Source of the DNA: a virus | DNA length: 32,147 bases | IMG/VR virus record: IMGVR_UViG_3300050821_000564 | Location: 1-32,147 of that record | Reading direction: 5' to 3' (one strand) | Shown: piece after piece, positions 1 through 21,163 of the stretch | Layout of the letters: each line of letters starts with the position of its first letter | How positions within the stretch are numbered: the stretch's first letter is position 1 | Program-made: the position numbers and the translations under genes | Notes under the pieces: model-generated | What the model saw: only the letters and a program-made list of their open reading frames with translations | What the model was told of the DNA's origin: nothing | Database searches by the model: none

Positions 1-1856
1 CGCAAACGATCAATGCGATCGCCATCGCTTCCGGCTTTACGCAAAGCGCGGTTGGATCTGCGGCCTATACGATTTTGATTGCAGCAGCGCCTAGCTTTTC
101 CCCAGGGCCTGGCAGCTATTCGACCGCGCAATCTGTGACGCTAAGCTGCTCGCTGCCTTCCAGCGGCGCGAATATATACTACACCACCGATGGATCAACG
201 CCGACCACATCCAGCACGCTTTACACGGGGCCGATCACAGTCAGCGCGACGGAAACGATCAATGCGATTGCAACGGCTTCTGGCTACGAGACCAGCGCGG
301 TCGCAAGCGGCCTCTACGGTATCGGCATTCAACTTTACGGCTCGCGTCCGATTGCCTTCTACGTATCACCAACCGGATCGGATTCGAATGCCGGTACGCT
401 GACTGCGCCCTGGGCACCGACCAGCTTGATTAATAAATCGATCAACGCAAACAATCTGGCAAATTTCGCTTTGACGCACGCGCAAGTCATCGGCTTCCTG
501 CCCGGCTTCTTTGACTACTCGACGTATTTTGCGAATAGCAGCGGCGGCTACCCGGGCGCGATGCAAATCGACGGCGGACTTTCGGGAAGCCCGACGTGCT
601 ACATCAGCTGCAATTCCAGCGGTGCTTATGCGCCGCGCACAGCCATGTTGAATGGAAAGATCAACGGCGGCGGATACGGGGGCGGCTTCAACTATCCGAT
701 CAACGGATCATTAATGGCGCACATGCCTGGCGTCAGCTGCACGCATTCAGGCTATATCACTGTAGACGGGCTGATCTTCACGGGATGCACTTACAAAGCA
801 ATTCGCGTCGGCGGCGGATCAGCTGGCGAAGGCGCAGTCGGCATTCCTGGCGCGCTGATTCAAAATTGCGTTTTCACGGGCAACAACGGCGAAGGCTTAA
901 GCACCGATAATATGGCCGGCGTTTGGATCGACGGGACTATCGGCGCCATCGTGCAGAACAATTATTTTCACGACAATTACGGGGCCTCAGGGCCAAACAG
1001 CAACGATCATTTGAGCGCCGTGATCCTTTGGGGACCGAATTCAGGATCGACCTACAGTTCCGGCAACATCATCCAGAACAACACCATAGTGAATTCCGGC
1101 GACATCTGGGGAAAATACACCACTCAAGAGCAATCAACTATCCAGGGCAATTACATCGACATGTCGATGTATTCAACGCCGGCCGTTTCATCGGCAGTAT
1201 TCGACTTCAGCGGGCAGCCCACTTCCGGCCTGACTGGGACTACCTATTTTAGAAATAACGTTCTTCTGATCGCTGCGACCTCCGGGATCGGGCGCATGAC
1301 GCAGACGGATGCAGACGGATACACCACGCCGATCGTCTGCAATAACAATACGATCATCCTTTCAGGCGGCAGCCGATACCCGGCGCTTTGGCTGGCCGGG
1401 CTCGCTGCCGCAAATGGCGGCTTAAGCGTCTTCAATAATTTGATCCAGGGCAGCGGCGACACTTCGGGCTACAAGACAGTGCTGACCAATCCGGCGTTTC
1501 CTGGCCTTTTCAACTACAACATGTACATGGCGGCCGCGACCTTCGCACTGCGAACCAATGCGAACGTTGCCAGCGTACTTGCGACCTATTCAACGCCAAG
1601 CGCTTTCGGCGCCGGCATTGCGGCTAATGGCGGCATCAGCGGCGCGGAGGCGAATAGCATAGTAGGCACTGCTACCTTTACAAACATCGGCACGCACGCA
1701 CAGTTTTATCAGCTGAATGCCGGATCGACCGGCCAAAATTCTGGATATACGAACGGCACGGGCAGCGGCGGCGCCGCCTGCGATATGGGCGCATGGGGCA
1801 ATCTTCCTTCCGGCTTGACCTACATCGGCAGCATGGTCGGCGGAGTTCTTGATTGA
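1..1856 (+). CDS. Tail spike/adhesin with chitobiase-C-terminal-like repeats and probable beta-helix (5' partial)
   Basis: The frame is open from base 3 to the TGA at 1854-1856, so the gene starts upstream of the window; the TTG at 75 is not convincing as a start because in-frame sequence before it (QTINAIAIASGFTQSAV) is the end of another copy of the domain that follows. That domain (about bases 90-325, ending TINAIATASGYETSAVASG and containing YYTTDGSTPTT) matches the chitobiase/beta-hexosaminidase C-terminal-like family (CHB_HEX_C), an Ig-like carbohydrate-associated module. From about base 355 the protein has FYVSPTGSDSNAGT, the usual opening of parallel beta-helix/DUF1565-type proteins, followed by Asn/Gly-rich strands with motifs such as IQNNTIVN and VQNNYFHDN. 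Likely role: receptor binding or polysaccharide depolymerisation at the virion surface. No catalytic residues can be assigned. It runs directly into the next gene. Confidence 0.75.
   Translation, partial: QTINAIAIASGFTQSAVGSAAYTILIAAAPSFSPGPGSYSTAQSVTLSCSLPSSGANIYYTTDGSTPTTSSTLYTGPITVSATETINAIATASGYETSAVASGLYGIGIQLYGSRPIAFYVSPTGSDSNAGTLTAPWAPTSLINKSINANNLANFALTHAQVIGFLPGFFDYSTYFANSSGGYPGAMQIDGGLSGSPTCYISCNSSGAYAPRTAMLNGKINGGGYGGGFNYPINGSLMAHMPGVSCTHSGYITVDGLIFTGCTYKAIRVGGGSAGEGAVGIPGALIQNCVFTGNNGEGLSTDNMAGVWIDGTIGAIVQNNYFHDNYGASGPNSNDHLSAVILWGPNSGSTYSSGNIIQNNTIVNSGDIWGKYTTQEQSTIQGNYIDMSMYSTPAVSSAVFDFSGQPTSGLTGTTYFRNNVLLIAATSGIGRMTQTDADGYTTPIVCNNNTIILSGGSRYPALWLAGLAAANGGLSVFNNLIQGSGDTSGYKTVLTNPAFPGLFNYNMYMAAATFALRTNANVASVLATYSTPSAFGAGIAANGGISGAEANSIVGTATFTNIGTHAQFYQLNAGSTGQNSGYTNGTGSGGAACDMGAWGNLPSGLTYIGSMVGGVLD
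1301..1320. repeat. 10-bp tandem duplication
   Basis: The decamer GCAGACGGAT occurs twice back to back inside the spike gene. The unit is not a multiple of three, yet the frame stays open through both copies (reading QTDADGY). It is probably an old slippage event or chance. Confidence 0.6.
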
Positions 1857-4438
1857 CGCAGAAAACAATTTTCATCACCGCGCTGGGCGCAGGCACTTTC
1901 GTAGCCCCTGGCGATTGGCCTGCATCAAATGTTGCCGATGCGATCTATTGCATTGGCGGCGGCGGCGCGGGGCAAGAATCGAATAACGAGCCTGGCGAAG
2001 GCCCGGGCGGCGCTGCGGCTGCATTCGCGCCATCGACGAATGTCACGCTGCTGAATGGCGCGAATCTATTCGTCGGCAACGGCGGGCAAACCGCAGGGGC
2101 TGCAGGCCAGGATACATGGATAGGCGGAAGCAGTTTTGCCACATCGCTGGTCGGCGCGAAAGCTGGCGCAGGCGCAGGAACCACAGCTGGGCAAGCCGCG
2201 CAGGGCGGCCAGGCCAGCGCCTGCATCTGCAATGGCACGGCGCAGAGCGGTGGCAATGGATCGCTGAATAAAGGCGTATCTGGCGGCGGCGGCGGCGGCG
2301 GCGGCGCAGGCGGCCCAAATGGTCCAGGCGGCCAAGGCGGAAATAATGGGGGCGCAAGCGCGAATGGCGGCGGCGGCGGCGGCGCAGCGGATGGGGGTAC
2401 GAATGGCGGCACCGCGTCCAGCCCGAACGGCGCGCCTGGCGGCACGATTGGCGGCGCTGGCAATGGGACGGGCGGCACTTCTGGCACGCCTAATGGCGGC
2501 AATGGAACGACCGCCGCAGGCGGCGGCGGCTTAAATAGCGGCGCAAGCACCGCTGGCGGCAATGGCGGATCAGAAGCGCTTTGGACGCAGACATCAGATT
2601 CATCGACCGCCGGCCCTGGATCTGGCGGCGGCGGCAGCGGCCAGGTCGCGCCCAGCCAGCCGGGCAATGGCGGTCTTTATGGCGGCGGCGGCGCTGGATC
2701 TGGCGACGGCGGATTGACTACGTTCGGAAAAGGCGCGCAGGGAATCATCGTGATCCTTTACACGCCCAGCGGCGGCGGCCCGGCCGCTGTTCTCGCATCT
2801 GCTGCTGCCGGCCAAGCTTCGCTGGGCGCCCAGATTGGCGCGCCCTGGGCTGCGCAGATGGCGGCGAAGGCGACGTGGACGGATCTGGCGTGGCTTTCTT
2901 CGCGCATGGGCGCGATCGCCAGCGCGCAGCCTTCGAATCTTCTGAACTGGGCTAGCATCACGCTGACTGCGCCGCTTTATCAGGGCCTGGGCGGCGCGCT
3001 TGATGGATACCTTTGGACGATCGCCACGCCCAAGGTCGGCACGGTCGTCTATTACGATCCTGCCAATATGTCGATCGCATCCGATGGATCGATCACCGCC
3101 ACGTCGAATAATTTCAGCGCGCTGATTGGCTTTTATGATCCATCCGCCGGCTGGCAGTCCGCGCTTTACACTATTTCGCCAGGGGAAGTCGGCTACGCCA
3201 TCGGCTATGCAAGCTTGACCGCGACGCTTTCGGGAAACTTAAGGCCGCTGGCCGCCGCCGCTTCGGATCTTGCCAACTTCGCGGCTTCCCTGTCTTCGAC
3301 GATCAAGCTTTCCGGCGCCGCAGGCGGCATTGCATCCGGCGCTGCTGCGCTGACCGCGGGCGTGGCGCTTGCCGATCATGCGGCGGCCTTAGCATCGATC
3401 AGCGCGGCATTGACCACGGGCGTGGCGCTGGCTGATGCCGCCGCGGGATTGGCGCGGGCGACGATCGCGATGCAAACGGCGGTTCAAGCCGCGACGCTGG
3501 CTGCAGGATTGGCATCTGCCGGGCCGGCGCTATCCACGCACATCCAGCTTGCCGCCCAGGCCGCAGGCATTGCATCGGGCACGCCGACGTTGACGAACAC
3601 CGTAGCGGCAACCCTGGCTGCGAGCGCCGGCGATATTGCCAGCGCTGCGATCAATCTATCAACCAAGATCGCTGCGATCAGCGCGCCGAATGCAATCGCC
3701 AGCAGCCAGCCATTCTTGACCACGCCGAAGCCTTTGCTGGCTGCTGCTTCAGGATTGGCCAGCGGGAGCTTCGCGATGCGAACGGGCGCGGGATTCCAGA
3801 CGCTTGCCGCAGGGCTATCCAGCGGCGCCGCCGCATTGCAGACGCAAGGCGCATTCGCTAGCCTAGGCCGCGCGATCGCTTCGATGTCCGCTTCGCTTTT
3901 CACGCTGCCGGTGCTGACTATGCCAATTCTTCTCGCGCACCAGATCCCTGGCATTTATCAGCCCGGCCCATTTCCGCAGGGGCAATTTCAAATCGGGGCG
4001 GGAACCGAATCGGTCTTCGGCATAGATTGGACCTATTGGATCTGCTTCCTATGGCAGCCGGGATATTCGGCGGCGCTGAATTACGTAATCCGCCCCTTCC
4101 CCTGGACGGGCCTGCAGTACATCTGCACCACCGCCGGGCAAACGGGGAACTATCCGCCGATCTGGCCCGAAGAAGTAGGGCAACTCGTTGTGGACGGCAG
4201 CGTGGTCTGGACCGCCGAAGCGATCGATAACACCAGCCTGCAGACCACCGTGGTCAGCGCGACATATTCCGCGCCGGCAGGAATCACTGCCAGCCCATAT
4301 GCCGTTGCAGGCCAGGTCACGCCCGTGGCAATCAATGCCAGCGCCGCGACGCCTGGGCAGACCTATGAGGTGGTTTGCACCGCCCTCATGGCCAGCGGCG
4401 ATTTTCTGATCGGCCAACTGATCTTCGATGTCAATTGA
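1853..4438 (+). CDS. Gly-rich/Ala-rich repeat virion adhesin-like protein
   Basis: 861 residues, starting at a TTG that overlaps the previous TGA. The N-terminus fits a Gly-rich phage fibre domain: KTIFITALGAGTFVAPGDW, then IYCIGGGGAG, then a very Gly-rich stretch to about residue 300. In phages such domains lie near receptor-binding tips or replace fibre chaperones. Residues about 464-690 are eleven degenerate copies of a roughly 20-residue Ala-rich unit (AAGLASG..AL.T.V.LA). The C-terminal 170 residues are a distinct aromatic-rich domain (IDWTYWICFLWQPGY, QLVVDGSVVWTAEAID). No enzyme motif was seen. It overlaps the terminase start by 11 bases, so it belongs to the phage operon. It is probably a fibre or surface-exposed adhesin; function is inferred from composition and context only. 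Confidence 0.7.
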   Translation: MTQKTIFITALGAGTFVAPGDWPASNVADAIYCIGGGGAGQESNNEPGEGPGGAAAAFAPSTNVTLLNGANLFVGNGGQTAGAAGQDTWIGGSSFATSLVGAKAGAGAGTTAGQAAQGGQASACICNGTAQSGGNGSLNKGVSGGGGGGGGAGGPNGPGGQGGNNGGASANGGGGGGAADGGTNGGTASSPNGAPGGTIGGAGNGTGGTSGTPNGGNGTTAAGGGGLNSGASTAGGNGGSEALWTQTSDSSTAGPGSGGGGSGQVAPSQPGNGGLYGGGGAGSGDGGLTTFGKGAQGIIVILYTPSGGGPAAVLASAAAGQASLGAQIGAPWAAQMAAKATWTDLAWLSSRMGAIASAQPSNLLNWASITLTAPLYQGLGGALDGYLWTIATPKVGTVVYYDPANMSIASDGSITATSNNFSALIGFYDPSAGWQSALYTISPGEVGYAIGYASLTATLSGNLRPLAAAASDLANFAASLSSTIKLSGAAGGIASGAAALTAGVALADHAAALASISAALTTGVALADAAAGLARATIAMQTAVQAATLAAGLASAGPALSTHIQLAAQAAGIASGTPTLTNTVAATLAASAGDIASAAINLSTKIAAISAPNAIASSQPFLTTPKPLLAAASGLASGSFAMRTGAGFQTLAAGLSSGAAALQTQGAFASLGRAIASMSASLFTLPVLTMPILLAHQIPGIYQPGPFPQGQFQIGAGTESVFGIDWTYWICFLWQPGYSAALNYVIRPFPWTGLQYICTTAGQTGNYPPIWPEEVGQLVVDGSVVWTAEAIDNTSLQTTVVSATYSAPAGITASPYAVAGQVTPVAINASAATPGQTYEVVCTALMASGDFLIGQLIFDVN
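3242..3920 (+). repeat. Ala-rich ~20-residue repeat tract
   Basis: Protein-level tandem repeat in the preceding gene. Successive units include AAGGIASGAAALTAGVALAD, AAGLASAGPALSTHIQLAAQ, AAGIASGTPTLTNTVAATLA and AAGLSSGAAALQTQGAFASL. About eleven units can be laid out by eye, with conserved A-A-G-[LI]-A-S, L and T positions. The DNA copies have diverged, so this is an old repeat kept at protein level rather than a recent expansion. Confidence 0.75.
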
Positions 4439-6029
4439 TTTCAAAAATCCAGATTATGCGGCGGTGATGCGCGAGCGCTGCGAGCGCCAGGCGCGGATCA
4501 ATGCGGCTAGCGCGGCCAAGATCGAAGCGCTGAAGGCCTATTACGCCGCGCATATCGCGGAATTCATCAGCGATTTCGGCATGACCATGGATCCGCGCGT
4601 CGCCGCTAAAGGCCGCAGCCCCTTCATGCCGTTCGTGCTTTTCCCCAAGCAGATCGATCTGGTCGAATTCATCGTGCGCAAATGGCGCACCGGCGCGCCC
4701 GGGATTGTGGTCAAGTCCCGCGACGTCGGCGCATCCTGGATCGCCATGGCGGTCAGCTGCAGCCTTTGCATCTTTCATAAAAACATGATGATTGGCGTGG
4801 GGTCCGCCAAGGAAATCAAGCTGGATCGCACCGGCGATCCCGATTCGCTTTTCTATAAAGCGCGGCAATTCATGCAGTATCTGCCGCTGCAATTCCGCGG
4901 CAGCTGGGCTATCGATGCGCACGCGCCTTATATGCGCATGCTATTTCCTGACACCGTATCTTCGATCACCGGCGAAGCCGGCGATTCGATTGGCCGCGGC
5001 GGACGCAAGGCGATCTATTTCGTCGATGAGGCCGCGCATATTGAGCGCCCCGCGCTGGTCGATGCCTCGCTGGCTTCCACCACCGATTGCCGCATCGATA
5101 TGAGCAGCGTGGCCGGCACCGCCAATTCCTTCGCCGAAAAAGCGATGGGCGGCAAGATCGAGCGCTTTGATTTCGCCTGGCAGGATGATCCGCGCAAGGA
5201 TCAAGCGTGGTATGACAAAAAGGCAGAAGAATTAGATCCGATCACGCTGGCGCAGGAAATCGATCGAAATTTCTCAGCATCTATCGAAGGCATCGTAATC
5301 CCATCGATTTGGGTGACGGCTTCTGTCGATGCGCATATCCGCCTAAAAATCGCGCCCAGCGGCAAGCGCCAGGGCAGCCTGGATGTCGCCGATACCGGCA
5401 TCGACAAGAATGCTTTCGCCTGGCGCTATGGCAATTGCCTTGAAGGCGCGAAGTCCTGGACGGGCAAGAATTCCGATATTTTCGCGACCGCTGAAAAGGC
5501 CTTCATGCTTTGCGATGAGCTATCGCTGGCCAGCTTCAATTTCGATAACGATGGCTTAGGCGCCGGCATCAGCGGCGATGCGCGAATCATCAATGCCCGG
5601 CGCAAAGCTGATGGCCTGCGCGCCATTGCCGTAGAATCCTTTCGCGGATCCGGCGAAGTCCTGCAGCCCGAAAAGCAGATGGTGCCCGGGCGCAAAAATC
5701 AGGATTTCTTTGCCAATCTGAAAGCCCAAAGCTGGTGGCATCTGCGCTTTATGTTCCAGCAGACCTGGCGGGCATCGCAGGGCCTATCCTTCGATCGCAG
5801 CATGGTGATCAGCATCGCGTCGGGATTCCCAGAGATTTCGCGGCTGCTGCTCGAGTTGTCGCAGCCGGTCTATTCGATCAATACGGCCGGCAAGATCCTG
5901 ATCGATAAAGCGCCCGAAGGAATGGCGTCGCCCAATCTGGCCGACGCGGTTATGATGTGCTTCGCGCCGCGCAAAGCGGTCATGAGGATCACCGCGGCGG
6001 CGCTGCAGGCTGCTGAAGAGGTCACGTAA
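4428..6029 (+). CDS. Terminase large subunit (TerL)
   Basis: 533-residue DNA-packaging motor that translocates the genome into the procapsid and cuts it. The ATPase half has a deviant Walker A, VVKSRDVGAS (about 94-103), which lacks the usual GK pair, as is common in this terminase group, and a clear Walker B, IYFVDE (196-201). The nuclease half shows the three acidic positions of the RNase H-like fold: SLDVADTG (D319), FNFDNDG (D373/D375) and NLADAV (D506). The ATG at 4428 overlaps the upstream adhesin gene by 11 bases, and a small head gene follows directly. No small terminase subunit is recognised in this window; it may lie upstream of base 1. Confidence 0.95.
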   Translation: MSIDFKNPDYAAVMRERCERQARINAASAAKIEALKAYYAAHIAEFISDFGMTMDPRVAAKGRSPFMPFVLFPKQIDLVEFIVRKWRTGAPGIVVKSRDVGASWIAMAVSCSLCIFHKNMMIGVGSAKEIKLDRTGDPDSLFYKARQFMQYLPLQFRGSWAIDAHAPYMRMLFPDTVSSITGEAGDSIGRGGRKAIYFVDEAAHIERPALVDASLASTTDCRIDMSSVAGTANSFAEKAMGGKIERFDFAWQDDPRKDQAWYDKKAEELDPITLAQEIDRNFSASIEGIVIPSIWVTASVDAHIRLKIAPSGKRQGSLDVADTGIDKNAFAWRYGNCLEGAKSWTGKNSDIFATAEKAFMLCDELSLASFNFDNDGLGAGISGDARIINARRKADGLRAIAVESFRGSGEVLQPEKQMVPGRKNQDFFANLKAQSWWHLRFMFQQTWRASQGLSFDRSMVISIASGFPEISRLLLELSQPVYSINTAGKILIDKAPEGMASPNLADAVMMCFAPRKAVMRITAAALQAAEEVT

Positions 6030-6031
6030 AA

Positions 6032-6235
6032 ATGCCACTGACGCCCAAGGGCCAGGAAATCAAAGCCGCGCTGCAGAAAGAGTACGGCGCGAAGAAAGGC
6101 GAGGAAGTGCTATACGCCGGCCAGAATAAGGGCACTTTCAAGGGCATCGATGCGAAGCTTCAGGCGGATGCCGATCTGCTGGCATCTGGCAAGCATATCA
6201 GCGGCCGGGATCGCAAGGCCATGATCCGCAAGTGA
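6032..6235 (+). CDS. Small conserved phage protein between terminase and portal
   Basis: 67 residues, basic, beginning MPLTPKGQEIKAALQKEYG and containing GEEVLYAGQNKGTFKG. Short proteins with this pattern (Lys-rich N-terminus, a YG..KGE.V.YA..NKG motif) are frequent beside terminase or portal genes, usually annotated hypothetical. No enzymatic motif was seen. It starts 2 bases after the terminase stop and overlaps the portal start by GTGA, so it is translated as part of the packaging operon. Function unknown. Confidence 0.8.
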   Translation: MPLTPKGQEIKAALQKEYGAKKGEEVLYAGQNKGTFKGIDAKLQADADLLASGKHISGRDRKAMIRK

Positions 6236-10248: not shown

Positions 10249-11223
10249 ATGCCCAACAATCCCGGTTTCCAAACCTTCGTCAACAACGAACTGCCGCTGG
10301 CCGTCGCCGGCGATTTCGCCAGCGTCAATCCCCGCGCCAGCGTCCTGGGCAACCCCTTCGGATACGTGACCCCGCCGGCTGGCACCACGGTCGGCGCAAT
10401 GGCCTGGGGGAATCCTGCCACGGGCTTGGCCGGCAATTACTACGTGGCCAATTCGGCGCTGGGCTTCGTGCATCGCGAAGGCAATGCGCTGATCACGCCG
10501 TTCTTGGGATTCGCCACGATGACGATCCCGGGCGGCCTGCGCGTTACGCTGTTTGCGGAAGGCGATTTCTGGGGCGTATTCACGGGCGGCGGCACGGTCG
10601 GCCAGACCGTCTATGCAAATCCCTTGACCGGATTGCTGAGCGCGGCGGCAGCGGGCGGAACGCTGAATGCCAATTCCACCGCCTCATCGCTGGCCACGAC
10701 CGGCGTGCTGACGGTTGGCGCGACGCTCACTGGCACGATCACGGTCGGCATGGTGGTTACCGGCGCCGGCATTCCTGACGGCTGCTACGTCTCTTCGCAG
10801 CTGACCGGCACGGCGGGCAGCACCGGCACGTATCAGCTGACGAATGTGAACGGCACGGCATTCCCGACGGTAGGATCCGAGCTCGTGAATTTCTGGGGCA
10901 TCCAGGCCACGCAATGGCTGGTCGCGACCCCCATTCTGGTGGGCGCAATCGCCACCGGCTCATCGGTTGCCGCGGCCGTGGCTCCCGCAGTGGGCGGCAT
11001 CCTTACCGTCGGCACCGTGACTCAGGGCGTCTTCGCCGCGGGCCAATTCATCACCGGCGGCACGCTGGGCGCGACCGCGAATGCGCAGATCCTCTACCAG
11101 CTATCGGGCACCGTCGGCGGCGCGGGAACCTACCAGACGAATTATGCGGGGCCGGCGGTGACGTCGACCACGATCACGGGCACTGCTGGGCAATTGGGCA
11201 AGATTTCAGACCTCGCGCTGTAA
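10249..11223 (+). CDS. Structural cement/decoration protein, Gp24-like
   Basis: 324 residues, beta-rich and almost without charged clusters. The N-terminal part (LGNPFGYVTPPAGTTVGAM) fits structural cement proteins encoded next to the major capsid gene. Around residues 100-125 it reads LRVTLFAEGDFWGVF then GGGTVGQTVYA, which resembles the decoration-like protein downstream of the capsid gene. The second half holds two copies of a ~50-residue module: GVLTVGATLTGTITVG...GTYQLTN (about 153-205) and GILTVGTVTQGVFAAG...GTYQTNYAG (about 250-305). Such modules are frequent in phage virion proteins. It probably stabilises the capsid shell. It begins 31 bases after the protease gene, with a weak RBS (AGGCG). 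Confidence 0.75.
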   Translation: MPNNPGFQTFVNNELPLAVAGDFASVNPRASVLGNPFGYVTPPAGTTVGAMAWGNPATGLAGNYYVANSALGFVHREGNALITPFLGFATMTIPGGLRVTLFAEGDFWGVFTGGGTVGQTVYANPLTGLLSAAAAGGTLNANSTASSLATTGVLTVGATLTGTITVGMVVTGAGIPDGCYVSSQLTGTAGSTGTYQLTNVNGTAFPTVGSELVNFWGIQATQWLVATPILVGAIATGSSVAAAVAPAVGGILTVGTVTQGVFAAGQFITGGTLGATANAQILYQLSGTVGGAGTYQTNYAGPAVTSTTITGTAGQLGKISDLAL

Positions 11224-11252: not shown

Positions 11253-12335
11253 ATGAAAACCGTAGCCTTCGATAGCAAAGCGTTCGACGCAGCCATCCGC
11301 GCCGGCGCCGGCAGCCAGCTGCTTAGCGAACTGCGCACGCGCAAGGGCATCCAGTTCGACGAAATGCTGGGGCCGCAGGAATGGAAGCAGCCCGGATTGC
11401 CGACCTACGATTTCAATATGGCGTGCGACGTGCAGCCGCAGCTGGTCACCGTTTCAAATGCCGGCATCCCCTGGTTCCTGGCCAATTATCTGGATCCGAA
11501 GGTGATCGAGATTCTGGTGTCGCCGCTTATGGCGGCGGTGATCGCGGGCGAAGCCGGCAAGGGCGACTGGCTGAATGAAACCGCGATGTTCCTGACGGTG
11601 GAAGCGACCGGCGAAACCTCGAGCTATGGCGATTTCAGCGGCAATGGCGGATCAAGCGTCAACGCGAATTTCCCGCAGCGGCAGAATTATCTTTTCCAGG
11701 CCTTCCTGCAGTACGGCCAGCGCGAGCTCGGGATGTACGGCTTGGCGAAGCTGGACTGGGCGTCGCAGCAGCAGCAGGCGAATGCGCTGACGCTGATGAA
11801 GGCCTTAAATTTCATGTACTTCTTCGGCGTCGGGGGCCTGCAGAACTATGGCCTGCTGAATGATCCGAACCTTTATCCCAGCCTGACGCCGATCTTCAGC
11901 TGGCTGACCAATCCCAGCGCGACGGCGAACACGATCTATCAGGACGTGGTGCGGCTATTCATCCAGCTGCAAGGCCAAAGCAATGGCGTGGTGAAGGAAG
12001 ACGCGCCGATGGTGCTAGCGATGTCGCCGCAGCAGGCGATCACGCTGAAATTCATCACGCTGTACAACACCAATTCCGTCGAAGTGCTGCTGAAGCAGAA
12101 TTTTCCGAACATGCGCATCGAAACGGCCGTGCAATACGCCACGCCTTCAGGGCAGCTGGTGCAGCTGATCTGCGAAAATGTGGAAGGCCAGCGCACGATG
12201 GAATGCGCGTTCTCATCCAAGCTGATGGCGCACATGATGATTGCCGACACCAGCAGCTGGAAGCAGAAGCGATCCAGCGGCGGATACGGCACGATCATCT
12301 ATCGGCCCTTCCTCGTTTCCTCGATGCTGGGATAA
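11253..12335 (+). CDS. Major capsid protein, DUF2184 family
   Basis: 360 residues from the ATG at 11253 (MKTVAFDSKAFDAAI), preceded by AGGGA. The frame stays open upstream inside the cement gene, but that part is a shadow. It matches the DUF2184 major capsid family: QWKQ-like entry then LPTYDFNMACDVQPQLVTVS, GIPWFLANYLDPKVIEIL, KGDWLNETAMFLTVEATGET, a GDFSGNGGSSVNANFPQRQN segment, YGLLNDPNLYPSL, and a C-terminal domain ending SSGGYGTIIYRPFLVSSMLG. It is expected to have the HK97 fold and build the icosahedral shell. Position after the protease/scaffold and cement genes is typical. Confidence 0.93.
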   Translation: MKTVAFDSKAFDAAIRAGAGSQLLSELRTRKGIQFDEMLGPQEWKQPGLPTYDFNMACDVQPQLVTVSNAGIPWFLANYLDPKVIEILVSPLMAAVIAGEAGKGDWLNETAMFLTVEATGETSSYGDFSGNGGSSVNANFPQRQNYLFQAFLQYGQRELGMYGLAKLDWASQQQQANALTLMKALNFMYFFGVGGLQNYGLLNDPNLYPSLTPIFSWLTNPSATANTIYQDVVRLFIQLQGQSNGVVKEDAPMVLAMSPQQAITLKFITLYNTNSVEVLLKQNFPNMRIETAVQYATPSGQLVQLICENVEGQRTMECAFSSKLMAHMMIADTSSWKQKRSSGGYGTIIYRPFLVSSMLG

Positions 12336-12533
12336 ATGGCGGTCAGTTCGTATCAGCCGCAGCTTAGCCAGGTGTTCATGGGCCTGGCGGCTGATACAAA
12401 GCCGCCGACAGCACCGCCCGGCAGCAAATTCTTGACGACCGATACGCTGCTGGTTTTCATCATGCTGAATACCGGCGTCTGGACTCAGATCGGCACAGTG
12501 GCATCGGCGACTGGGGTTCCGGTCACGATTTAA
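12336..12533 (+). CDS. Small conserved head protein
   Basis: 65 residues, starting at the base after the capsid stop. It begins MAVSSYQPQLSQVFMGLAAD, continues TKPPTAPPGSKFLTTDTLLV and ends NTGVWTQIGTVAS. This is the common small phage protein pattern with TKP..PPGS.F..TDT...F...G..W, a short beta sandwich-like unit near capsid genes. It is probably a minor virion or decoration component; function not established. Confidence 0.75.
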   Translation: MAVSSYQPQLSQVFMGLAADTKPPTAPPGSKFLTTDTLLVFIMLNTGVWTQIGTVASATGVPVTI

Positions 12534-12534
12534 A

Positions 12535-13029
12535 ATGATCGGGCACAGCGCCCCATATTCAACGCTGCCCGCTTTCGCCGGCGCCTGGTGCGCAGGCCCC
12601 GCCGGCGTATCCTTCAATCGCTTTGGCTTCGCGGATCCGAATACCGGCTTGGTCTCAAACGCCTATTCCCCAGGCCAGGAAATGGGGATCGTTCTGCCGC
12701 AGCCGCTGCGCTATGGGCGCAATGGCTGGAATCTGGCGCAGTGGAGCAACTTCGTTCCGCCAGGATCCCCGCCGCTGCCGCCTTCGGGAATTCCGCCGAC
12801 GCTGATCCTGCGCCAAGGCATGCCGTGCACGCTGCTGATCCAGGGCCGCTTCATCATGCAATTCTTAGGCGGCACGCAAGTTGGGCAGCAGGTCTTCGCC
12901 AGCGTCGCCGATGGATCCGCGTGGACCGGCGTGACCGGCGCTGGATACCTGCCCACGGCCTGGACTACACTCGGGGCATGCGGCCCGAATGGGCGCGTGC
13001 AGATCAATACCTACGTCCCGCCTTTCTAG
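12535..13029 (+). CDS. Second cement/decoration-like head protein
   Basis: 164 residues, beta-rich with many Pro and Gly. It begins MIGHSAPYSTLPAFAGAWCA. Residues about 100-125 (GMPCTLLIQGRFIMQF, GGTQVGQQVFASVADGSAW) align with the upstream cement protein (GLRVTLFAEGDFWGVF, GGGTVGQTVYANPLTG), sharing T-L-x3-G-x-F-x3-F-x-G-G-x2-VGQ-x-V-[FY]-A. It therefore looks like a divergent paralogue of the cement protein lying on the other side of the capsid gene. Likely role: capsid decoration. It starts 2 bases after the preceding stop, with no clear RBS. Confidence 0.7.
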   Translation: MIGHSAPYSTLPAFAGAWCAGPAGVSFNRFGFADPNTGLVSNAYSPGQEMGIVLPQPLRYGRNGWNLAQWSNFVPPGSPPLPPSGIPPTLILRQGMPCTLLIQGRFIMQFLGGTQVGQQVFASVADGSAWTGVTGAGYLPTAWTTLGACGPNGRVQINTYVPPF

Positions 13030-14493: not shown

Positions 14494-14825
14494 AGGATCC
14501 GAATAACGGTCCCTTCTATGCGGCCGGCCTATACACGAAGCTGTGCAAAGTCTTCCGCGAGCATGGCTACGCGCTGGCCGTGCATGGATCCGTTGGCACC
14601 GATTTCGATCTGATCGCAGTTCCCTGGGTCGATGAGGCCGGGACGCCGCGGGCGATTATCGATCAGCTGATGAAACAGTTTGCCTTCGATCAGAAGCCCC
14701 ACGATAGGGATTTTAGTCCCAAGCCGCACGGCCGCTGCGCGTATAAGCTGCACATGAGCTTCGGCGATTGCTCGCTGGACATCAGCTTCACGCCGCGCAC
14801 CGGCAAATGGTGGAAGAAAAAATGA
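14490..14825 (+). CDS. Nucleotidyltransferase-like protein in the neck cluster
   Basis: 111 residues. GYALAVHGSVGTDFDLIAVP contains a polymerase-beta-like nucleotidyltransferase signature: GS at 33-34, then D38-x-D40, with a third acidic residue in CSLDISF (D97). Proteins with this HGS...D.DLIAVPW pattern occur as small hypothetical genes in many phages. If active it would transfer a nucleotide to an unknown target; no substrate domain is present. It overlaps both neck neighbours by ATGA, so it is co-translated with them although it has no obvious structural role. Activity is inferred from the motif only. Confidence 0.75.
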   Translation: MKDPNNGPFYAAGLYTKLCKVFREHGYALAVHGSVGTDFDLIAVPWVDEAGTPRAIIDQLMKQFAFDQKPHDRDFSPKPHGRCAYKLHMSFGDCSLDISFTPRTGKWWKKK

Positions 14826-15226
14826 ATCTGCATGGCGTCGTTCGCGGCCCGGTGAACGCGATCAATCCGGACATCCAGGGGCTGATCCTGCGCAGCGCCG
14901 GATATGACACGAAGCTGGACGGCTATCGGCGCCCAAAATATCTGCAGGCGCAATCGATCAGCCTGCAGGTCCAGGCCCTGGCCGGCGGGGACTTAAGGCA
15001 CGCCGAATTCTTGAATCTGCAGGGCGTTTTGCGCGCAGTTTATCTTTTCGGCGACACGCAGGGCGTCGAGCGCGTGGCCGTGAAGGGCGGCGATCTGCTG
15101 CAATTCCCCGAATATCCAGGCGCGCCAATCACCAATTGGCTGGTCACCGAAGTGCTCGAAACCTGGAATCCTGGCTGGAGCAAAGTGATCGCCACGCAGC
15201 AGATCGATGCGATCGTGATCCAATGA
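14822..15226 (+). CDS. Head-tail connector/stopper-like neck protein
   Basis: 134 residues from the ATG at 14822 (ATGA overlap). Beta-rich: IQGLILRSAGYDTKLDGY, AQSISLQVQALAGGDLRH, LNLQGVLRAVYLFGDTQGV, RVAVKGGDLLQFPEYPG and WLVTEVLETWNPGWSKV. The pattern (RSAGY, VQ.QAL...DL, LN.QGV.R.VYL.G, KGGDLLQFP, W.V..VLE.W..GW.KV) is shared by small neck proteins between HK97 gp10-like and terminator genes. Likely a head-closure/stopper component; the role is inferred from position. Confidence 0.75.
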   Translation: MNLHGVVRGPVNAINPDIQGLILRSAGYDTKLDGYRRPKYLQAQSISLQVQALAGGDLRHAEFLNLQGVLRAVYLFGDTQGVERVAVKGGDLLQFPEYPGAPITNWLVTEVLETWNPGWSKVIATQQIDAIVIQ

Positions 15227-15765
15227 CCGCGACGGTAAGCCCGAAGCGAAACGATGTTTATACGGCGCTGCGCGCGCTGCTGCAGGGGATCGTCGGCGGC
15301 AATCCACCGCCGCAGGTGATCATCGGCCTGGGCAATCGCGTGCCGATGCCGAATGCGCCTTTCATTGCGATCACCACGATCGGAACCGCGCGCTTAGACA
15401 CCAACGTCGACACCGACACGGATGGCTATCCGCTGCTGCCGGGCACGACGAGCTCAGAGCAGGCGACGCGCATGGATCTGCAGTTTGATTTTTACGGTCC
15501 GCAATCGAATAGCTGGGCCACGATGGTCAGCACGCTTTTCCGCGACGATTATTCCTTCGAAATTTTGGCGCCCGTCTGCGCGCCCTTCTATGCAGATGAT
15601 CCGATCATGGTGCCGCTGATCAGCGCCGAGAATCAGTATCTGCAGCGCTGGACGGTAACCGCAGCGATTCAATACAATCCGGTGACCGTGACGGCGCAGG
15701 ATTTCTCGACTACACTCGACATCGTTCCGATCAACGTGGACGAAGAATTCCCACCCGCCGCTTAG
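15223..15765 (+). CDS. Neck/tail terminator protein (LIC_12616-like)
   Basis: 180 residues from the ATG at 15223 (ATGA overlap). Features: VYTALRALLQGIVGG, IGLGNRVPMPNAPFIAITTI, TDTDG, DLQFDFYGP, TLFRDDYSFEILAPVCAPFY, and the conserved ending LDIVPINVDEEFPP. This is the pattern of the neck/tail terminator family often annotated LIC_12616, which caps the tail tube and joins it to the neck. The same domain recurs, about 60% identical by hand alignment, at the C-terminus of the 724-residue protein ending at 19230. The next gene has its own RBS (TAGGAG) 13 bases on. Confidence 0.85.
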   Translation: MTATVSPKRNDVYTALRALLQGIVGGNPPPQVIIGLGNRVPMPNAPFIAITTIGTARLDTNVDTDTDGYPLLPGTTSSEQATRMDLQFDFYGPQSNSWATMVSTLFRDDYSFEILAPVCAPFYADDPIMVPLISAENQYLQRWTVTAAIQYNPVTVTAQDFSTTLDIVPINVDEEFPPAA

Positions 15766-15778
15766 GAGCGCATCGACA

Positions 15779-16504
15779 ATGGCCATCCTTACCTGGGCTG
15801 AAGCTGCTGCGGAATTCAACGCATTTTTCTGCAACGTCTTCACCGGCACTTGGAATACGATCGCGCAGAATTCGGCGGCGCCGGCGACCAATATCTACGT
15901 CAGCTTGCACAATGCGGATCCCGGGAACGGCGGATCGCAGACCACATCGGAAACGGCTTACACGAATTACGCGCGCCAGGCGGTGGTTCGAACCACCGCC
16001 GGCTGGACGGTGACGACGGGATCGGGCACCACATTCACGGTCGTGACCAATGCGGCGGTGATCACCTTCCCGGCCTGCGGCGCCACGGGCGACACGCTGA
16101 CGCATTGGGGCCTTGGGCTTTCCTTGAGCGGCGCCGGCACCTTAAATTATTTCGGCCCGCTTGGACCCACCGCTGGGCCTGCTGTGCCATTCGGCTGCAC
16201 CAGCGCATCGCCTGGGGTCTTAACGCATTACGGCTATACGCCGACGGTCAACGATCGCGTATCGGTCTATCAAGGCCCGGGATCCGAAGGCCTGCCAACG
16301 GGCTTGACCGAAGGGACGGTTTATTTTATCGGCACGGCGCCGGGCGGACAGACGTCCACGCTGTCGACCACGACGGCGAACGGCAATCCGGTGAACACCA
16401 GCACCACGGGCAGCGGCTATATCTATAAGCAGTCGCCGCTGATCGTATCGAATGGCATCACGCCATCCTTAGCGATCGGGGCAATCAGTCTTCAGAAGGC
16501 GTAA
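15779..16504 (+). CDS. Virion surface/tail-fibre-like protein
   Basis: 241 residues with the pattern NIYVSLHNADPGNGGSQTTS, ETAYTNYARQAVVRT, VITFPACGATGD, LTHWGLGLS and a C-terminus ending PSLAIGAISLQKA. Phage proteins with SLH.ADPG....SE..Y..YAR and FP......ITH.G are annotated as tail fibre or decoration proteins, usually near the neck. A Thr/Gly-rich insert (residues about 145-215, LTEGTVYFIGTAPGGQTS) interrupts the usual order. RBS TAGGAG precedes the ATG. Probably a beta-sandwich appendage; exact location unknown. Confidence 0.65.
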   Translation: MAILTWAEAAAEFNAFFCNVFTGTWNTIAQNSAAPATNIYVSLHNADPGNGGSQTTSETAYTNYARQAVVRTTAGWTVTTGSGTTFTVVTNAAVITFPACGATGDTLTHWGLGLSLSGAGTLNYFGPLGPTAGPAVPFGCTSASPGVLTHYGYTPTVNDRVSVYQGPGSEGLPTGLTEGTVYFIGTAPGGQTSTLSTTTANGNPVNTSTTGSGYIYKQSPLIVSNGITPSLAIGAISLQKA

Positions 16505-16510
16505 AGTACC

Positions 16511-17047
16511 ATGGCAAATTCACCGTATACCCTATTCACACTTCGTGCCGCCGGCCCTTCGCTTACCGCCGGCACCGCAGCTTCCATGCTGGCGAATGCG
16601 ACCGCCGGGCAGGTTCGGCCGACTATCGCATCGCTGTGGCTGGCTTACGGAACCAAGCTTAATTTCAGGGCCGCCGGCGTTGTAACCACTGCCGCCACCC
16701 CTGGAACGGGGACTTGGGATTTGCGCATTGGCGGCAACATCGTGGCGACCACAGGCGCGATCACGCTCGCAGCGAGCGCTACAACCTGGCCTTGGCAGAT
16801 TGATATTGATTTGATCGTGCGATCTGAAGGCATTACCACTGCCGCAACCGTCTATGGAACGGGCGCAGTTTACTTGCCGACATCCAACACGGCTTGGACC
16901 ACCAGTCCGATCACTTTCGGTCTGGGCGCCAGCGGCTTCGATAACACGGTGCCGAACGTCTTCGATTCCTTCTTCACAGAATCGCTGGGCACGGCCACGA
17001 TGGTGTGCCAATCCGCTGCGCTTCTAGCGTGGAACCCGAACTACTGA
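16511..17047 (+). CDS. Beta-sandwich virion protein of unknown role
   Basis: 178 residues, rich in Thr, Ala and Gly with very few charged residues. Segments GTGTWDLRIGGNIVATTGAI, WPWQIDIDLIVRSEG and VFDSFFTESLGTATMVCQSA suggest a jelly-roll decoration or appendage unit such as is found in phage neck and fibre genes. No catalytic motif. It lies 6 bases after the previous gene and 8 before the next, inside a three-gene set inserted between the terminator and sheath genes. Function inferred from context only. Confidence 0.65.
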   Translation: MANSPYTLFTLRAAGPSLTAGTAASMLANATAGQVRPTIASLWLAYGTKLNFRAAGVVTTAATPGTGTWDLRIGGNIVATTGAITLAASATTWPWQIDIDLIVRSEGITTAATVYGTGAVYLPTSNTAWTTSPITFGLGASGFDNTVPNVFDSFFTESLGTATMVCQSAALLAWNPNY

Positions 17048-17055
17048 GGTAATAC

Positions 17056-19230
17056 ATGGCAGCCCCTCCTTACGGATCGGGGCCACCGTGGGCTTCGGGT
17101 GGCGTTCCGCCTCCGGGCATTCCGCTAATCGGATCTTTGCCGACCGGCATAGCACCGTACGTCTATAACGTCAGCCAGCAATTTATTATATCTGGCACGG
17201 CCGTATCTCTGCCCATGCAGACGATTGCGGCGGCCGGCAATGGCATGGTGGTGATCTGGCAGGGATCGCAAAACGCTCCGGCCATAAAGGATAACTACAA
17301 CAGCGTATGGCGTCTGGCGACTTCGATCATCGGATCGAATGGGCTGCTAGGAATTTTCTATTGCGCCAAACTGCTGGGACCAAATCCGACAATCACGGCG
17401 ACGTTTGGATCTTCTGTAGGCCTTGCGCTTTGGGCGCTGGAAATAGTCGGGGCAAATCCGCAGTTTTTTTTAGATTGCGCGGCTAGCTTTACCGCTACGG
17501 TGTCGCCAATCACAGCGGCGCTGAGAACATCCTCCCCTGGCGATCTAATCATCACAGCGGAAGGATCGACTACAGCGTCGACAAACACGCTGCCTGCAGG
17601 CTTTTCGACGCATCTGCAGCTGACGCAAACGGTAGGCTATTCGCGCACTACTATTGGTTGGTCGAATACTCCAGTGCCGCTGAATACCGTCGGCCCGGCA
17701 TGGACGAATACGGGCGGATCGAGCGCGATCGTCGCCACGATCGCTATCCGCGCCTTCAATCAATTTCCTAGCAATGCGCAGCCGCCACTGCCGCTTCCGC
17801 AATTTCCGCCAGGCGTTCATTCTTTGCCGCCGGGACCGCCGATTATTTGGCCGCCGTTCTTCCCAGAATCACCGCCATCTGCCCCATCGACGACAGCAAT
17901 AAGCGGGGCTGGCCTATCGCCAAGCACAGCGGAAGCGGCTCTAGCCGGCGTCGGTGCGCTTTCAGCGCCTGGCGTATCGCCTTCCATTGGCGAAGGATTG
18001 CTGGCCGGCGCGGGCGCATTAGCGGCCCCAGGCGCGGCGTCAAGCACGGGCGAAGCCAATCTGGCGGGATCTGGGGCGCTCGCGGCGCTTGGGGCAGCGC
18101 CTTCAAGCGGCGAGGCCTTCCTGCCCGTTCCCGGGATGCAGATCCAGGGCGTGGCGCCAAGCACCGGCGAGGCATCGATTGGCGGATCCGGCGCGCTCAG
18201 CGCGGATGGCGCGGCGCCTAGCGCTGGATCTGTGCTGATCATTGGCCAGGCGCCGATCGGGGCCTTAAGCGCCAGCCCTTCGGCGGGATCCGCCAGCCTG
18301 CAGCCACAGGGCTTAAAAGCCCCAGGAGAATCGGCATCGATCGGATCTGCGCAGCTTCTAGGCAGCGGCGCGCTTGCCGCCCTAGGCGCATCGGCATCCA
18401 AGGGATCCGCCTTTATCGTAGGCCCCCTTTCCGCCCTAGGCGCTTCATTATCCGCTGCTGCTGCCCTGCTGCTGGGGCAAGGCGCGCTCGCCGCCCTGGG
18501 CGCAGCGGCATCGATCGGATCGGCGGCGCCCACGGGAACGCTGGCTGCCAGTGGCAAAGGATTGGCGCCCAGCGCAGGCGCCGCGAATCTGCAGGCAATC
18601 GCCGCCGGCACGATCTTTGCGCGCGGTTTATCGATCAGCAGCGCGCTGGCCACGATCACCGGCGAAGTGATCTTCGAAATCATTCCCAATGGCATTTCGC
18701 CGGAATTGCCGGCGATCTATCAGGCCTTGCGGCAATTCATCCAGGGCGTGATCGGCGGCAGCCCTGCCATAGAAGTCATCTTGGGATTAGATAATCGCGT
18801 GCCGATGCCTGCGGCGCCCGGCTTCATCGTGATCACGGCGATTGGCAGCTATCGATTAGAAACGAATATCGACACCGATGTCGACGGGATGTTCTTGACG
18901 CCGCTGCAGACCGGAACGATGCAATCGAATCAGCCGACGCGCTTGGAAATTCGCATCGATCTTTACGGCCCGGACTCGAGTGATTGGGCCATCATGCTGG
19001 GCACGCTGTTCCGCGATGACTACGCCGTGCAAGCGCTGGCGCCATTGTGCGCGCCTTTATATGCGGATGAGCCGCGCATGCTTCCGCTGATCAGCGCGGA
19101 AGCGCAATACATCGAGCACTGGATTCTTTTAGCCTCCGTGCAGTACGATCCGATCACGGTGACAGGCCTAGGCTTTGCGACTACACTGAATATCGTCCCG
19201 ATCAATGTGGATGAGGAGTTCCCCCCGTGA
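17056..19230 (+). CDS. Repeat-bearing adhesin-like protein fused to a second terminator domain
   Basis: 724 residues, with RBS GAGGT. Three parts are visible. Residues 1-245: Pro-rich start (MAAPPYGSGPPWASGG) then a beta-sandwich-like domain ending SSAIVATIAIRAF. A Pro-rich linker (about 246-278, PPLPLPQFPPG) follows. Residues about 279-535: twelve or so copies of an Ala-rich ~20-residue unit such as AAPGAASSTGEANLAGSGAL. Residues 547-724: a full copy of the terminator domain of the gene at 15223, about 60% identical by hand alignment, sharing NRVPMP, TLFRDDY, PLISAE and the ending IVPINVDEEFPP. It overlaps the sheath gene by GTGA. It could place a fibre at the neck, with the terminator domain as the docking part; this is inference. 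Confidence 0.75.
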   Translation: MAAPPYGSGPPWASGGVPPPGIPLIGSLPTGIAPYVYNVSQQFIISGTAVSLPMQTIAAAGNGMVVIWQGSQNAPAIKDNYNSVWRLATSIIGSNGLLGIFYCAKLLGPNPTITATFGSSVGLALWALEIVGANPQFFLDCAASFTATVSPITAALRTSSPGDLIITAEGSTTASTNTLPAGFSTHLQLTQTVGYSRTTIGWSNTPVPLNTVGPAWTNTGGSSAIVATIAIRAFNQFPSNAQPPLPLPQFPPGVHSLPPGPPIIWPPFFPESPPSAPSTTAISGAGLSPSTAEAALAGVGALSAPGVSPSIGEGLLAGAGALAAPGAASSTGEANLAGSGALAALGAAPSSGEAFLPVPGMQIQGVAPSTGEASIGGSGALSADGAAPSAGSVLIIGQAPIGALSASPSAGSASLQPQGLKAPGESASIGSAQLLGSGALAALGASASKGSAFIVGPLSALGASLSAAAALLLGQGALAALGAAASIGSAAPTGTLAASGKGLAPSAGAANLQAIAAGTIFARGLSISSALATITGEVIFEIIPNGISPELPAIYQALRQFIQGVIGGSPAIEVILGLDNRVPMPAAPGFIVITAIGSYRLETNIDTDVDGMFLTPLQTGTMQSNQPTRLEIRIDLYGPDSSDWAIMLGTLFRDDYAVQALAPLCAPLYADEPRMLPLISAEAQYIEHWILLASVQYDPITVTGLGFATTLNIVPINVDEEFPP
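17890..18660 (+). repeat. Ala/Gly/Ser-rich ~20-residue repeat tract
   Basis: Protein-level tandem repeat with consensus near A-x-G-A-x-S-x-G-x-A-x-L-x-G-x-G-A-L-[AS]-A. Units include SAPGVSPSIGEGLLAGAGAL, AAPGAASSTGEANLAGSGAL and AALGAASIGSA-type copies toward the end. Spacing varies between 17 and 23 residues. The period and the AL/GA/S pattern recall the tract at 3242-3920, so the two may share an origin. Confidence 0.75.
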
Positions 19231-20717
19231 CAGCAACCATCCCGGCCAGCTATTTGGTGCAAGCGAATCCGAGCGTTCTGTCCGCCGGCGGCACGGGCCT
19301 TTCCTTAAATTCCGTCTTCATCACCTCAGATCCTTCGATCCCGATCGGCACCGTTCAGCCCTTCGCCAGCGCCGCGAATGTGAGCTCCTGGTTCGGCCAG
19401 AATGCGCCGGAAACGGCGCTGGCGAATATCTATTTCAGCGGCTACAACGGCGGCCTGCAGCTGCCGACGCAGCTTTTCTTCGCGCAATTCAATACCGCGG
19501 CGGTGGGCGCCTATATCCGCGGCGGCAATATTTCCGGCATCACCTTGGCGCAGCTGCAAAGCTATTCGGGCACGATTTCGATTCTGATCAATGGCACGGC
19601 GGTCAACACCAGCACGATCAATCTTTCGGCCGCGACCAGCTTTTCGAATGCCGCGGCGACGATCACCACGGCGCTGGGGGCGAATGGGACCTGCACTTAC
19701 GATTCGCAGCGCCAGGCCTTCGTGATCACTAGCCCGACCACGGGACCCACCAGCACGATCGCCTTCCCGACCGACACGTCGCTATCGCCGCTGCTGCTGC
19801 TGACCGCAGCCACCGGCGCGAATCTTTCGCAGGGCGCAGCGATCAATAATCCGACGGCGCTGATGACCACGGTCGCGCAGCAGACGCAGAATTGGGCCGC
19901 CTTCATGACGGTGGCCGAGCAGACGCTGGCGAACAAGCTGCTGTTCGCGCAGTGGGTGCAGACCACGAATCAGGCATATATGTACGTCTGCCAGGATTCG
20001 AATGCCGCCGCGCTTGCCGCTGGCGCTTCGCCGGCCACCACTTTCGGACCGGCGGTCGCTGCCATGAATGGTATCTGCCCCGTCTATGACACTAGCGGCG
20101 GCCAGGTCGCGGCCTTCATCTGCGGCATCACCGCTTCGATCAATTTCGCGCAGCTGAATGGATACACCGATTACGCCTTCAAATCGAACGGCGCTTTGAC
20201 GCCGCAGATCACCAACGAAACGCAGGCGCAGAATCTGGACGGCAACAATTATTCCTTCTACGCGGCGGTGGCCACCGCCGCTTCGCAATTTCAATTCCTC
20301 TATCCGGGCGGGATTTCGGGGAACTGGGACTGGGTCGATGAATACGTCGCGCAGATCCAGCTAAATGCATCGCTGCAGCTTGCCGGCGTTTCGCTGCTGA
20401 CTTCCGTCCGCTCGCTGCCGAATAATCCGCGCGGCGACAATCTGATCCGCGCCGCCATGCTCGGCCCCATCAATGCGGCGGTGAACTTCGGCACAATCCA
20501 AAATGGCGTGCCCTTGTCTCCCGCACAAGTCGCACAGCTGGCGACGGCGGCTGGCGCGGATATTTCAACGCCCTTGACGCAGCAGGGCTGGTACCTGCAG
20601 GTGGTGCCTGCCACGCCGCAGGTGCGCGCCAATCGCGGCCCGCGGCAGGTAAATCTCTGGTACACCAACGGCGGCGGCGTGCACACGATCAATATCAATA
20701 GCGTCTACGTGCAGTAG
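19227..20717 (+). CDS. Tail sheath protein, DUF3383 family
   Basis: 496 residues, GTG start with RBS GAGGAG. Starts TATIPASYLVQANPSVLSAG and contains GLSLNSVFITSDPSIPIGTV, VSSWFGQNAPETALANIYF and QLPTQLFFAQFN, then an inserted beta domain (ISILINGTAVNTSTINLSAA...GANGTCTYDSQRQAFVIT), and a C-terminal sheath core with GYTDYAFKSNGALTPQITNE, WVDEYVAQIQLNASLQLAGV and QQGWYLQVVPATPQ, ending IDIN-type INSVYVQ. This is the DUF3383 contractile sheath family; it wraps the tube and contracts on infection. The presence of this gene fixes myovirus morphology. Confidence 0.93.
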   Translation: MTATIPASYLVQANPSVLSAGGTGLSLNSVFITSDPSIPIGTVQPFASAANVSSWFGQNAPETALANIYFSGYNGGLQLPTQLFFAQFNTAAVGAYIRGGNISGITLAQLQSYSGTISILINGTAVNTSTINLSAATSFSNAAATITTALGANGTCTYDSQRQAFVITSPTTGPTSTIAFPTDTSLSPLLLLTAATGANLSQGAAINNPTALMTTVAQQTQNWAAFMTVAEQTLANKLLFAQWVQTTNQAYMYVCQDSNAAALAAGASPATTFGPAVAAMNGICPVYDTSGGQVAAFICGITASINFAQLNGYTDYAFKSNGALTPQITNETQAQNLDGNNYSFYAAVATAASQFQFLYPGGISGNWDWVDEYVAQIQLNASLQLAGVSLLTSVRSLPNNPRGDNLIRAAMLGPINAAVNFGTIQNGVPLSPAQVAQLATAAGADISTPLTQQGWYLQVVPATPQVRANRGPRQVNLWYTNGGGVHTININSVYVQ

Positions 20718-20728
20718 GAGAGAAAGCC

Positions 20729-21163
20729 GTGGCCACGATTACAGCTGCCAATGTCCAATTCACCATTTCGGTGCCGCAGGTCTTCGCCGCGCCGATCCCG
20801 CTGCAAGGATTCGCCACGGACGATGCCTTTGCCACCGAACGGGTCGAGCCGGCCGAAGTGGTCTTAGGCGTCGACGGCATTGCCAGCGCAGCCTTCATCC
20901 CCTTCCTATCGAAGACGATCATCGCGCTGCAAGCCGACAGCCCGTCGCTTTTCATGTTCGACGCCTGGCTGGCCGCGCAGGTCGCCGCCCAGGACATCTA
21001 TCTGGCCAGCGCCGTGATCCTCTATCCTTCGATCAGCAAAAGCTTCGCCCTATCGAATGGCACGCTGACCGGGCTGGTGCAATTCCCGGGTGCGAAAAAG
21101 ATCCTGCAGCCCTCGAGCTTCGAAATTACCTGGCAGTCGATCGTGCCTTCCACCACCCTGTAG
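20729..21163 (+). CDS. Tail tube protein, DUF3277 family
   Basis: 144 residues, GTG start with strong RBS (TAGGAGAG). Sequence VQFTISVPQVFAAPIPLQGF, ATDDAFATERVEPAEVVLGV and DGIASAAFIPFLSKTIIALQ, then DAWLAAQVAAQDIYLASAVI and FALSNGTLTGLVQFPGAKK, fits the DUF3277 tail tube family. It forms the inner rigid tube through which DNA passes. It directly follows the sheath gene, as expected. Confidence 0.92.
   Translation: MATITAANVQFTISVPQVFAAPIPLQGFATDDAFATERVEPAEVVLGVDGIASAAFIPFLSKTIIALQADSPSLFMFDAWLAAQVAAQDIYLASAVILYPSISKSFALSNGTLTGLVQFPGAKKILQPSSFEITWQSIVPSTTL

Follow-up and report, generated by a model that had tools for sequence, protein, structure and literature searches.

The terminator gene of a myophage-type virus is present twice in the DNA analysed here (the window, a 32,147-base IMG/VR virus record taken at its full length). 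The second copy, copy B, is a paralogue of the first, copy A, and is fused at the C-terminus of a long repeat-rich protein. The terminator has been duplicated, with a gene cassette lying between the two copies. We suggest that copy A probably still works as the cap and that copy B probably became the C-terminal virion anchor of an appendage.

The structural module of the window is of myophage type, with terminase, portal, head morphogenesis protein, protease, major capsid and neck proteins preceding the tail genes. After the neck proteins follow copy A, the cassette, the fusion, sheath (DUF3383), tube (20729-21163), chaperone, tape measure and baseplate. Megablast of the window against known phages gave no match. 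The window contains two terminator copies only. The relevant features are:

14768..15226, plus strand: head-completion gene (phrog_1912 'head protein', E=8.5e-34; same neighbour in relatives)
15223..15765, plus strand: copy A, stand-alone neck/tail terminator of 180 aa (PF23961, E=2e-25; phrog_1876)
15779..16504, plus strand: cassette gene 1 (P0003, 241 aa), virion-type protein (PF23140 'Podophage GP4 fiber I gp80', E=3.5e-12; phrog_240 'head protein')
16511..17047, plus strand: cassette gene 2 (P0004, 178 aa; no Pfam match; homologues follow P0003 homologues in other loci)
17056..19230, plus strand: fusion ORF, 724 aa (ribosome-binding-site-like GAGG upstream)
17056..17790, plus strand: fusion, Pro-rich start and beta-sandwich-like domain, residues 1-245 (homology to L198 and L181; AF2; Foldseek)
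17761..17895, plus strand: fusion, Pro-rich linker, residues ~236-280 (from sequence)
17896..18690, plus strand: fusion, about 13 Ala/Gly/Ser-rich repeats of ~20 residues, residues ~281-545 (lag-20 signal)
18694..19227, plus strand: fusion, copy B, fused terminator domain, residues 547-724 (identity to copy A; PF23961; AF2; Foldseek)
19180..19227, plus strand: C-terminal tail of copy B, TTLNIVPINVDEEFPP, predicted sheath-docking arm (family-wide C-terminal motif; solved myophage terminators)
19227..20717, plus strand: tail sheath, DUF3383 (PF11863, E=4.2e-111; phrog_205)

The head-completion gene lies directly upstream of copy A and overlaps it by ATGA (15223-15226), and copy B adjoins the sheath gene, an order that is kept in relatives. 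The sheath gene starts with GTG overlapping the stop of the fusion ORF, and its Shine-Dalgarno-like GAGGAG sits in the last codons of copy B. Elsewhere in the module, the minor head protein family phrog_2122 is matched twice, at 10249-11223 and 12535-13029, flanking the major capsid gene. The second of these copies is present also in L011, L012 and many relatives; in L012, three related ORFs stand in tandem (1255-3915).

The earlier note, made by reading the sequence, took the last ~178 residues of the fusion for a second terminator at about 60% identity. The measured value is 58% (104/178 identical residues over fusion residues 547-724, 76% similarity, E=1e-73), and the motifs it listed, NRVPMP, TLFRDDY, PLISAE and INVDEEFPP, are all present. 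Both copies match phrog_1876 as well as PF23961 'Phage neck terminator protein', copy A with 89.7 bits and the fusion with 72.3 bits (E=4.6e-20), against a curated cut-off of 27. The join lies at the ancestral start of the terminator, as fusion residue 547 aligns with copy A residue 5, and the reading frame 17056-19230 has no internal stop across its 724 codons. Of 60 family-conserved columns, copy B keeps 46 and copy A 48 (family mean 76%). Copy A is nearer than copy B to the single-copy orthologues, with 64% versus 54% for L011 and 61% versus 56% for L012.

The two copies are highly diverged at synonymous sites (dN 0.31, dS 1.50, dN/dS about 0.2). Third codon positions are 44% identical over the domain, which rejects a recent tandem duplication. 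The note had also pointed to nearly the same DNA at the two ends. The similarity is real, but it carries no trace of recent copying or gene conversion, because only 55 of the 104 amino-acid-identical codons are identical as DNA and because (I)NVDxxFPP-like endings are common to single-copy relatives. The matching ends thus appear better explained by a family-wide C-terminal motif.

In the terminator tree, copy B of the window and its counterpart in L181, a second contig described below, form one clade (97/85), nested in a five-row clade together with A, L011 and L012 (100/99). A later duplication was not rejected by the AU test (p=0.118 for A and B as sisters, p=0.145 for A, B and L181). In the sheath tree, the window falls outside L181, L011 and L012, so that either a transfer of the cassette or its inheritance combined with losses could account for the pattern. 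There is a weak indication that copy B evolves faster than copy A (17 versus 32 changes, with p=0.04 when L011 is the reference and p=0.17 and 0.06 with two other references). Judged by its kept conserved columns and by a dN well below dS, copy B is not decaying.

The eight cultured-phage relatives and nearly all metagenomic loci carry, in this order, a head-completion gene, a single terminator and a sheath. We collected 123 distinct terminators; a sheath gene is in reach of 121, counting the window. The terminator lies directly upstream of the sheath at 119 of these 121 loci, or 118 of 120 without the window. Two copies at one locus were seen in the window only, among the 123 distinct terminators; each of 20 whole records searched gave one match. 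Further, the PF23961-type family was found in 10 of 398 genomes, with a single match in each, and a scan of genome contigs for terminator relatives gave three loci, none of them fused. Relatives were recovered only with alignment queries; protein-query scans with copy A alone, or with the front part of the fusion, found none. At L014, L093, L276 and other loci the terminator lies in a long frame of less than 385 aa, a length measured from stop to stop and not from individually determined starts, and these were left out of the fusion count. The terminators of L112, L113, L121 and L122 have ~55-65 extra residues inserted mid-domain, which may be a further means of decorating the terminator ring.

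An insert between terminator and sheath was found at two loci. At L011 it measures 1383 bp and holds two ORFs with hydrophobic signal-like starts (L011 8541-9910). The other locus, L181 (IMGVR_UViG_3300024222_000015), is an independent contig whose sheath is 71% identical to that of the window, and the homologue search recovered from it an in-frame terminator fusion in the same gene order. Its bases 3-35 read AINVDEAFPP*, the end of copy A, of which only the last ten residues are on the contig. Homologues of P0003 (79%) and P0004 (33%) follow, and then a 754-aa fusion that opens with a beta-sandwich-type part, continues with Ala-rich repeats and ends in a PF23961 terminator 57% identical to copy B of the window. 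Between the L181 fusion and its sheath (~3650-6205) there is a pectate-lyase-like ORF (phrog_11548) with a hydrophobic, signal-peptide-like start. The fused architecture is known from these two contigs, and its same order and in-frame joining in L181 show that it is conserved. No terminator-appendage fusion was found in the open-access papers searched.

The window is a metagenomic contig, and an assembly chimera, a sequencing frameshift or a recent tandem duplication might in principle have produced its fusion. We regard such an artefact as extremely improbable. Relatives with two separate genes, which the note had considered as a sign of a frameshift here, are not what L181 presents; its fusion is a single ORF in frame, on an independent contig with the same gene order. 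The diverged synonymous sites and the 724 codons without a stop speak against an artefact as well.

If copy B were the only working cap, copy A would be a redundant remnant or an assembly helper, and six fusion proteins would give the virion six stalks. Copy B indeed occupies the ancestral place adjoining the sheath, and it is kept at full length in L181 too. Nevertheless, copy A scores better against the family, is closer to the single-copy orthologues, keeps more of the conserved columns and is under purifying selection. We find this explanation improbable.

The anchor model of the earlier note would fail if the fused domain could not adopt the terminator fold, but this fold is what structure prediction gives for it. 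In the PDB, the family profile built from 53 relatives matched only 7kjk, the tail terminator of XM1 (E=0.0018). In the AlphaFold2 model of the full fusion, made with 53 aligned sequences, most of residues 551-724 are predicted with high confidence and the remainder with low confidence; the repeats and the N-terminal domain have pLDDT mostly below 50. Foldseek of this model retrieved, with probability 1.00 and E down to 4.2e-8, neck terminator or gateway chains of Pa193, Pam3, Bas63, PhiTE, XM1, E217 and Sf14. Lambda gpU and others rank after these myophage necks.

In solved relatives the C-terminal segment of the terminator is a beta-strand that joins the top sheath ring, as described for E217 (PMC10329688), Milano (PMC10491603), XM1 (PMC10457771) and phage 812 (PMC12886913). 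By analogy with them, copy B, with its INVDEEFPP ending, would retain a sheath-docking tail.

Two paralogues, both kept under constraint, could also have divided the ancestral work, with A capping the tube and B capping the sheath, and with the appended protein secondary or a passenger. T4 has one terminator for the tube and another for the sheath, and such a separation is on record for myophages (PMC11784142); the position of B directly before the sheath gene and of A directly after the head-completion gene would suit such a division. On the other hand, the same conserved columns and the sheath-docking tail are present in both copies, with no visible loss of one surface, and the closest relatives manage with one terminator. 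Such a division would also leave the conservation of the long front part as a fusion in L181 unexplained. We therefore consider it unlikely, although less so than the other alternatives.

The front part of the fusion agrees with the architecture that had been read from the sequence: a beta-sandwich-like domain, a Pro-rich linker and Ala-rich repeats. By BLASTP, residues 1-245 have homologues in the third protein of the L198 cassette (E=7e-9) and in L181 (5e-5); a wider domain family (L181, L196, L200, L206 and L208; HHalign 92%) is more distantly related. This kinship comes from pairwise BLASTP and HHalign only, as an iterated HMM search from the N-terminal domain did not spread beyond itself. 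The AF2 model of the domain, made with ten sequences, is all-beta (pTM 0.70, mean pLDDT 65.5). In BFVD its Foldseek matches are many uncharacterised phage proteins and minor tail proteins of mycobacteriophages and Gordonia phages (best E=2.9e-6, TMq 0.80), and the search of the PDB gave nothing significant (best E=0.011, prob 0.47). For fusion residues 1-546 no PDB chain scored below E=0.9, and outside the terminator domain the fusion has no Pfam or PHROG match. The label 'adhesin-like' in the earlier note goes by the architecture, and an adhesive role is putative; the N-terminal domain is a widespread phage minor-tail-type beta-sandwich.

The repeats have a period of 20 residues (mean BLOSUM62 at lag 20 of 0.96, versus a maximum of 0.375 in 300 shuffles) and number about 13, close to the twelve or so counted by eye. 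A tandem-repeat search of the DNA found none, though the protein repeats are clear. Similar repeats are carried by the L181 fusion. In L194, a 398-aa protein (11382-12575) has similar Ala/Gly-rich repeats and a different C-terminal end, charged and probably helical, which suggests that phages differ in the anchor to which they attach the repeat stalk.

The genes preceding the fusion recur in other surroundings. Relatives of P0003 were found at 141 IMG/VR loci, and among the 80 loci kept the only nearby terminator is L181's own. P0004 homologues follow P0003 homologues in L198, L201, L206, L208 and L181. G026/L200 is a relative that has one terminator, not fused, and its cassette is located upstream of terL. 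The occurrence of the cassette without a terminator elsewhere fits a mobile three-gene virion cassette (P0003, P0004 and the beta-sandwich/repeat protein) with phage-specific attachment.

Given such mobility, insertion of the cassette might also have produced the fusion as a neutral side effect, with a front part that does nothing at the neck. Other cargo does enter between terminator and sheath, as the L011 insert and the pectate-lyase-like ORF of L181 illustrate. Yet the side effect would have to include an intact terminator with a confidently predicted fold, joined at its ancestral start. Two phages share this in-frame joint and the arrangement of repeats and head, while their B domains have diverged at about 43% of positions. 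We give this possibility little credence.

Our preferred explanation is the duplication of the terminator into a cap and an anchor. The ancestral order would have been head-completion gene, terminator, sheath. The terminator was duplicated and the mobile cassette would have come between the copies, its third gene being fused, with the reading frame kept, to the beginning of the second one. Copy A would go on as a normal terminator, closing the tail and contacting the neck. Copy B, having kept the terminator fold and the docking tail, would anchor a long flexible appendage, which we consider a plausible role. Terminator helices lie on the outside of the ring (PMC12886913), so that an N-terminal fusion could project outward and leave the C-terminal arm free to dock. 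The N-terminus of copy B would then be expected on the outer helical face, leading to the repeat stalk and on to the beta-sandwich head. Most likely B would join the terminator ring together with A, or make a second ring at the same junction. The duplication, the fusion, its recurrence in a second phage and the mobility of the cassette are seen in the sequences, and the terminator fold is predicted. From the model we infer the presence of the fusion in virions, its location at the neck, a mixed ring and its stoichiometry, a possible role in surface or host binding and a possible adhesive function. Going further, there may be somewhat less than an even chance that a mixed or double terminator ring exists in which the duplicated cap subunit is a socket planting an exchangeable surface appendage at the head-tail junction. 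Appendages would then be attached by copying the ring protein, not by evolving a ring-binding domain, a notion we hold just as tentatively.

Neck and collar appendages are widespread; their attachment is known in only a few cases, and in these the completed ring is bound by a separate domain. The fusion has the arrangement of anchor, stalk and end domain that is typical of such appendages (T4 wac, XM1 gp40 and the lactococcal neck passage structure, NPS), here in the form of a terminator, ~13 repeats and a beta-sandwich. Because PDB, Pfam and PHROG searches showed no sequence homology to a known neck appendage, we propose that it works like one, not that it is one. One such case is XM1, whose collar spikes sit on the stopper and terminator rings; its spike gp40, with a proposed role in host sensing, is an appendage at this junction (PMC10457771). 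There, gp40 attaches to the ring by an Ig-like domain at its own N-terminus and carries a tailspike, whereas here the anchor would be a C-terminal copy of the ring protein. The NPS is modular, with a constant anchor, a stalk and an exchangeable beta-rich end domain at the neck (PMC6669499). It shares this modularity with the fusion, but its anchor is an N-terminal BppU-like ring domain. The neck fibre gp82-gp81-gp80 of cyanophage A-1(L) is likewise a three-gene module; it hooks to pentadecameric gp5 via gp82, and no homology to window proteins was seen (PMC10966104). Duplication of the terminator fold in a contractile system is represented by the PVC16 cap protein, which has a second terminator-like domain, although both domains are within one protein and without an appendage (PMC11784142). 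Myophage terminators themselves (PF23961/phrog_1876; the E217 and Pa193 gateway proteins, XM1 gp5, the Pam3 neck) are alike in profile, predicted fold, gene order and docking tail. Here there are two copies, one with a 546-residue N-terminal extension, and among the other distinct terminators collected only L181 is alike.

What sets the fusion apart from the known attachment by a separate domain is that its anchor appears to derive from a duplicate of the ring protein itself. This would be a simple evolutionary route for wiring a mobile virion cassette into a symmetric machine. It raises the questions of whether terminator rings can be heteromeric, how the A:B ratio is controlled and whether the neck can bear cargo with sheath contraction unimpeded. 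Further, phrog_1876, which is listed as of unknown function, and several unannotated phage genes gain a structural context.

More fibre-like cargo is probably encoded upstream of the terminase, where two large ORFs occupy window positions 75-4438. One of them has a chitobiase C-terminal domain (PF13290) and a weak beta-helix match, and the N-terminus of the other is related to L194 10095-11375.
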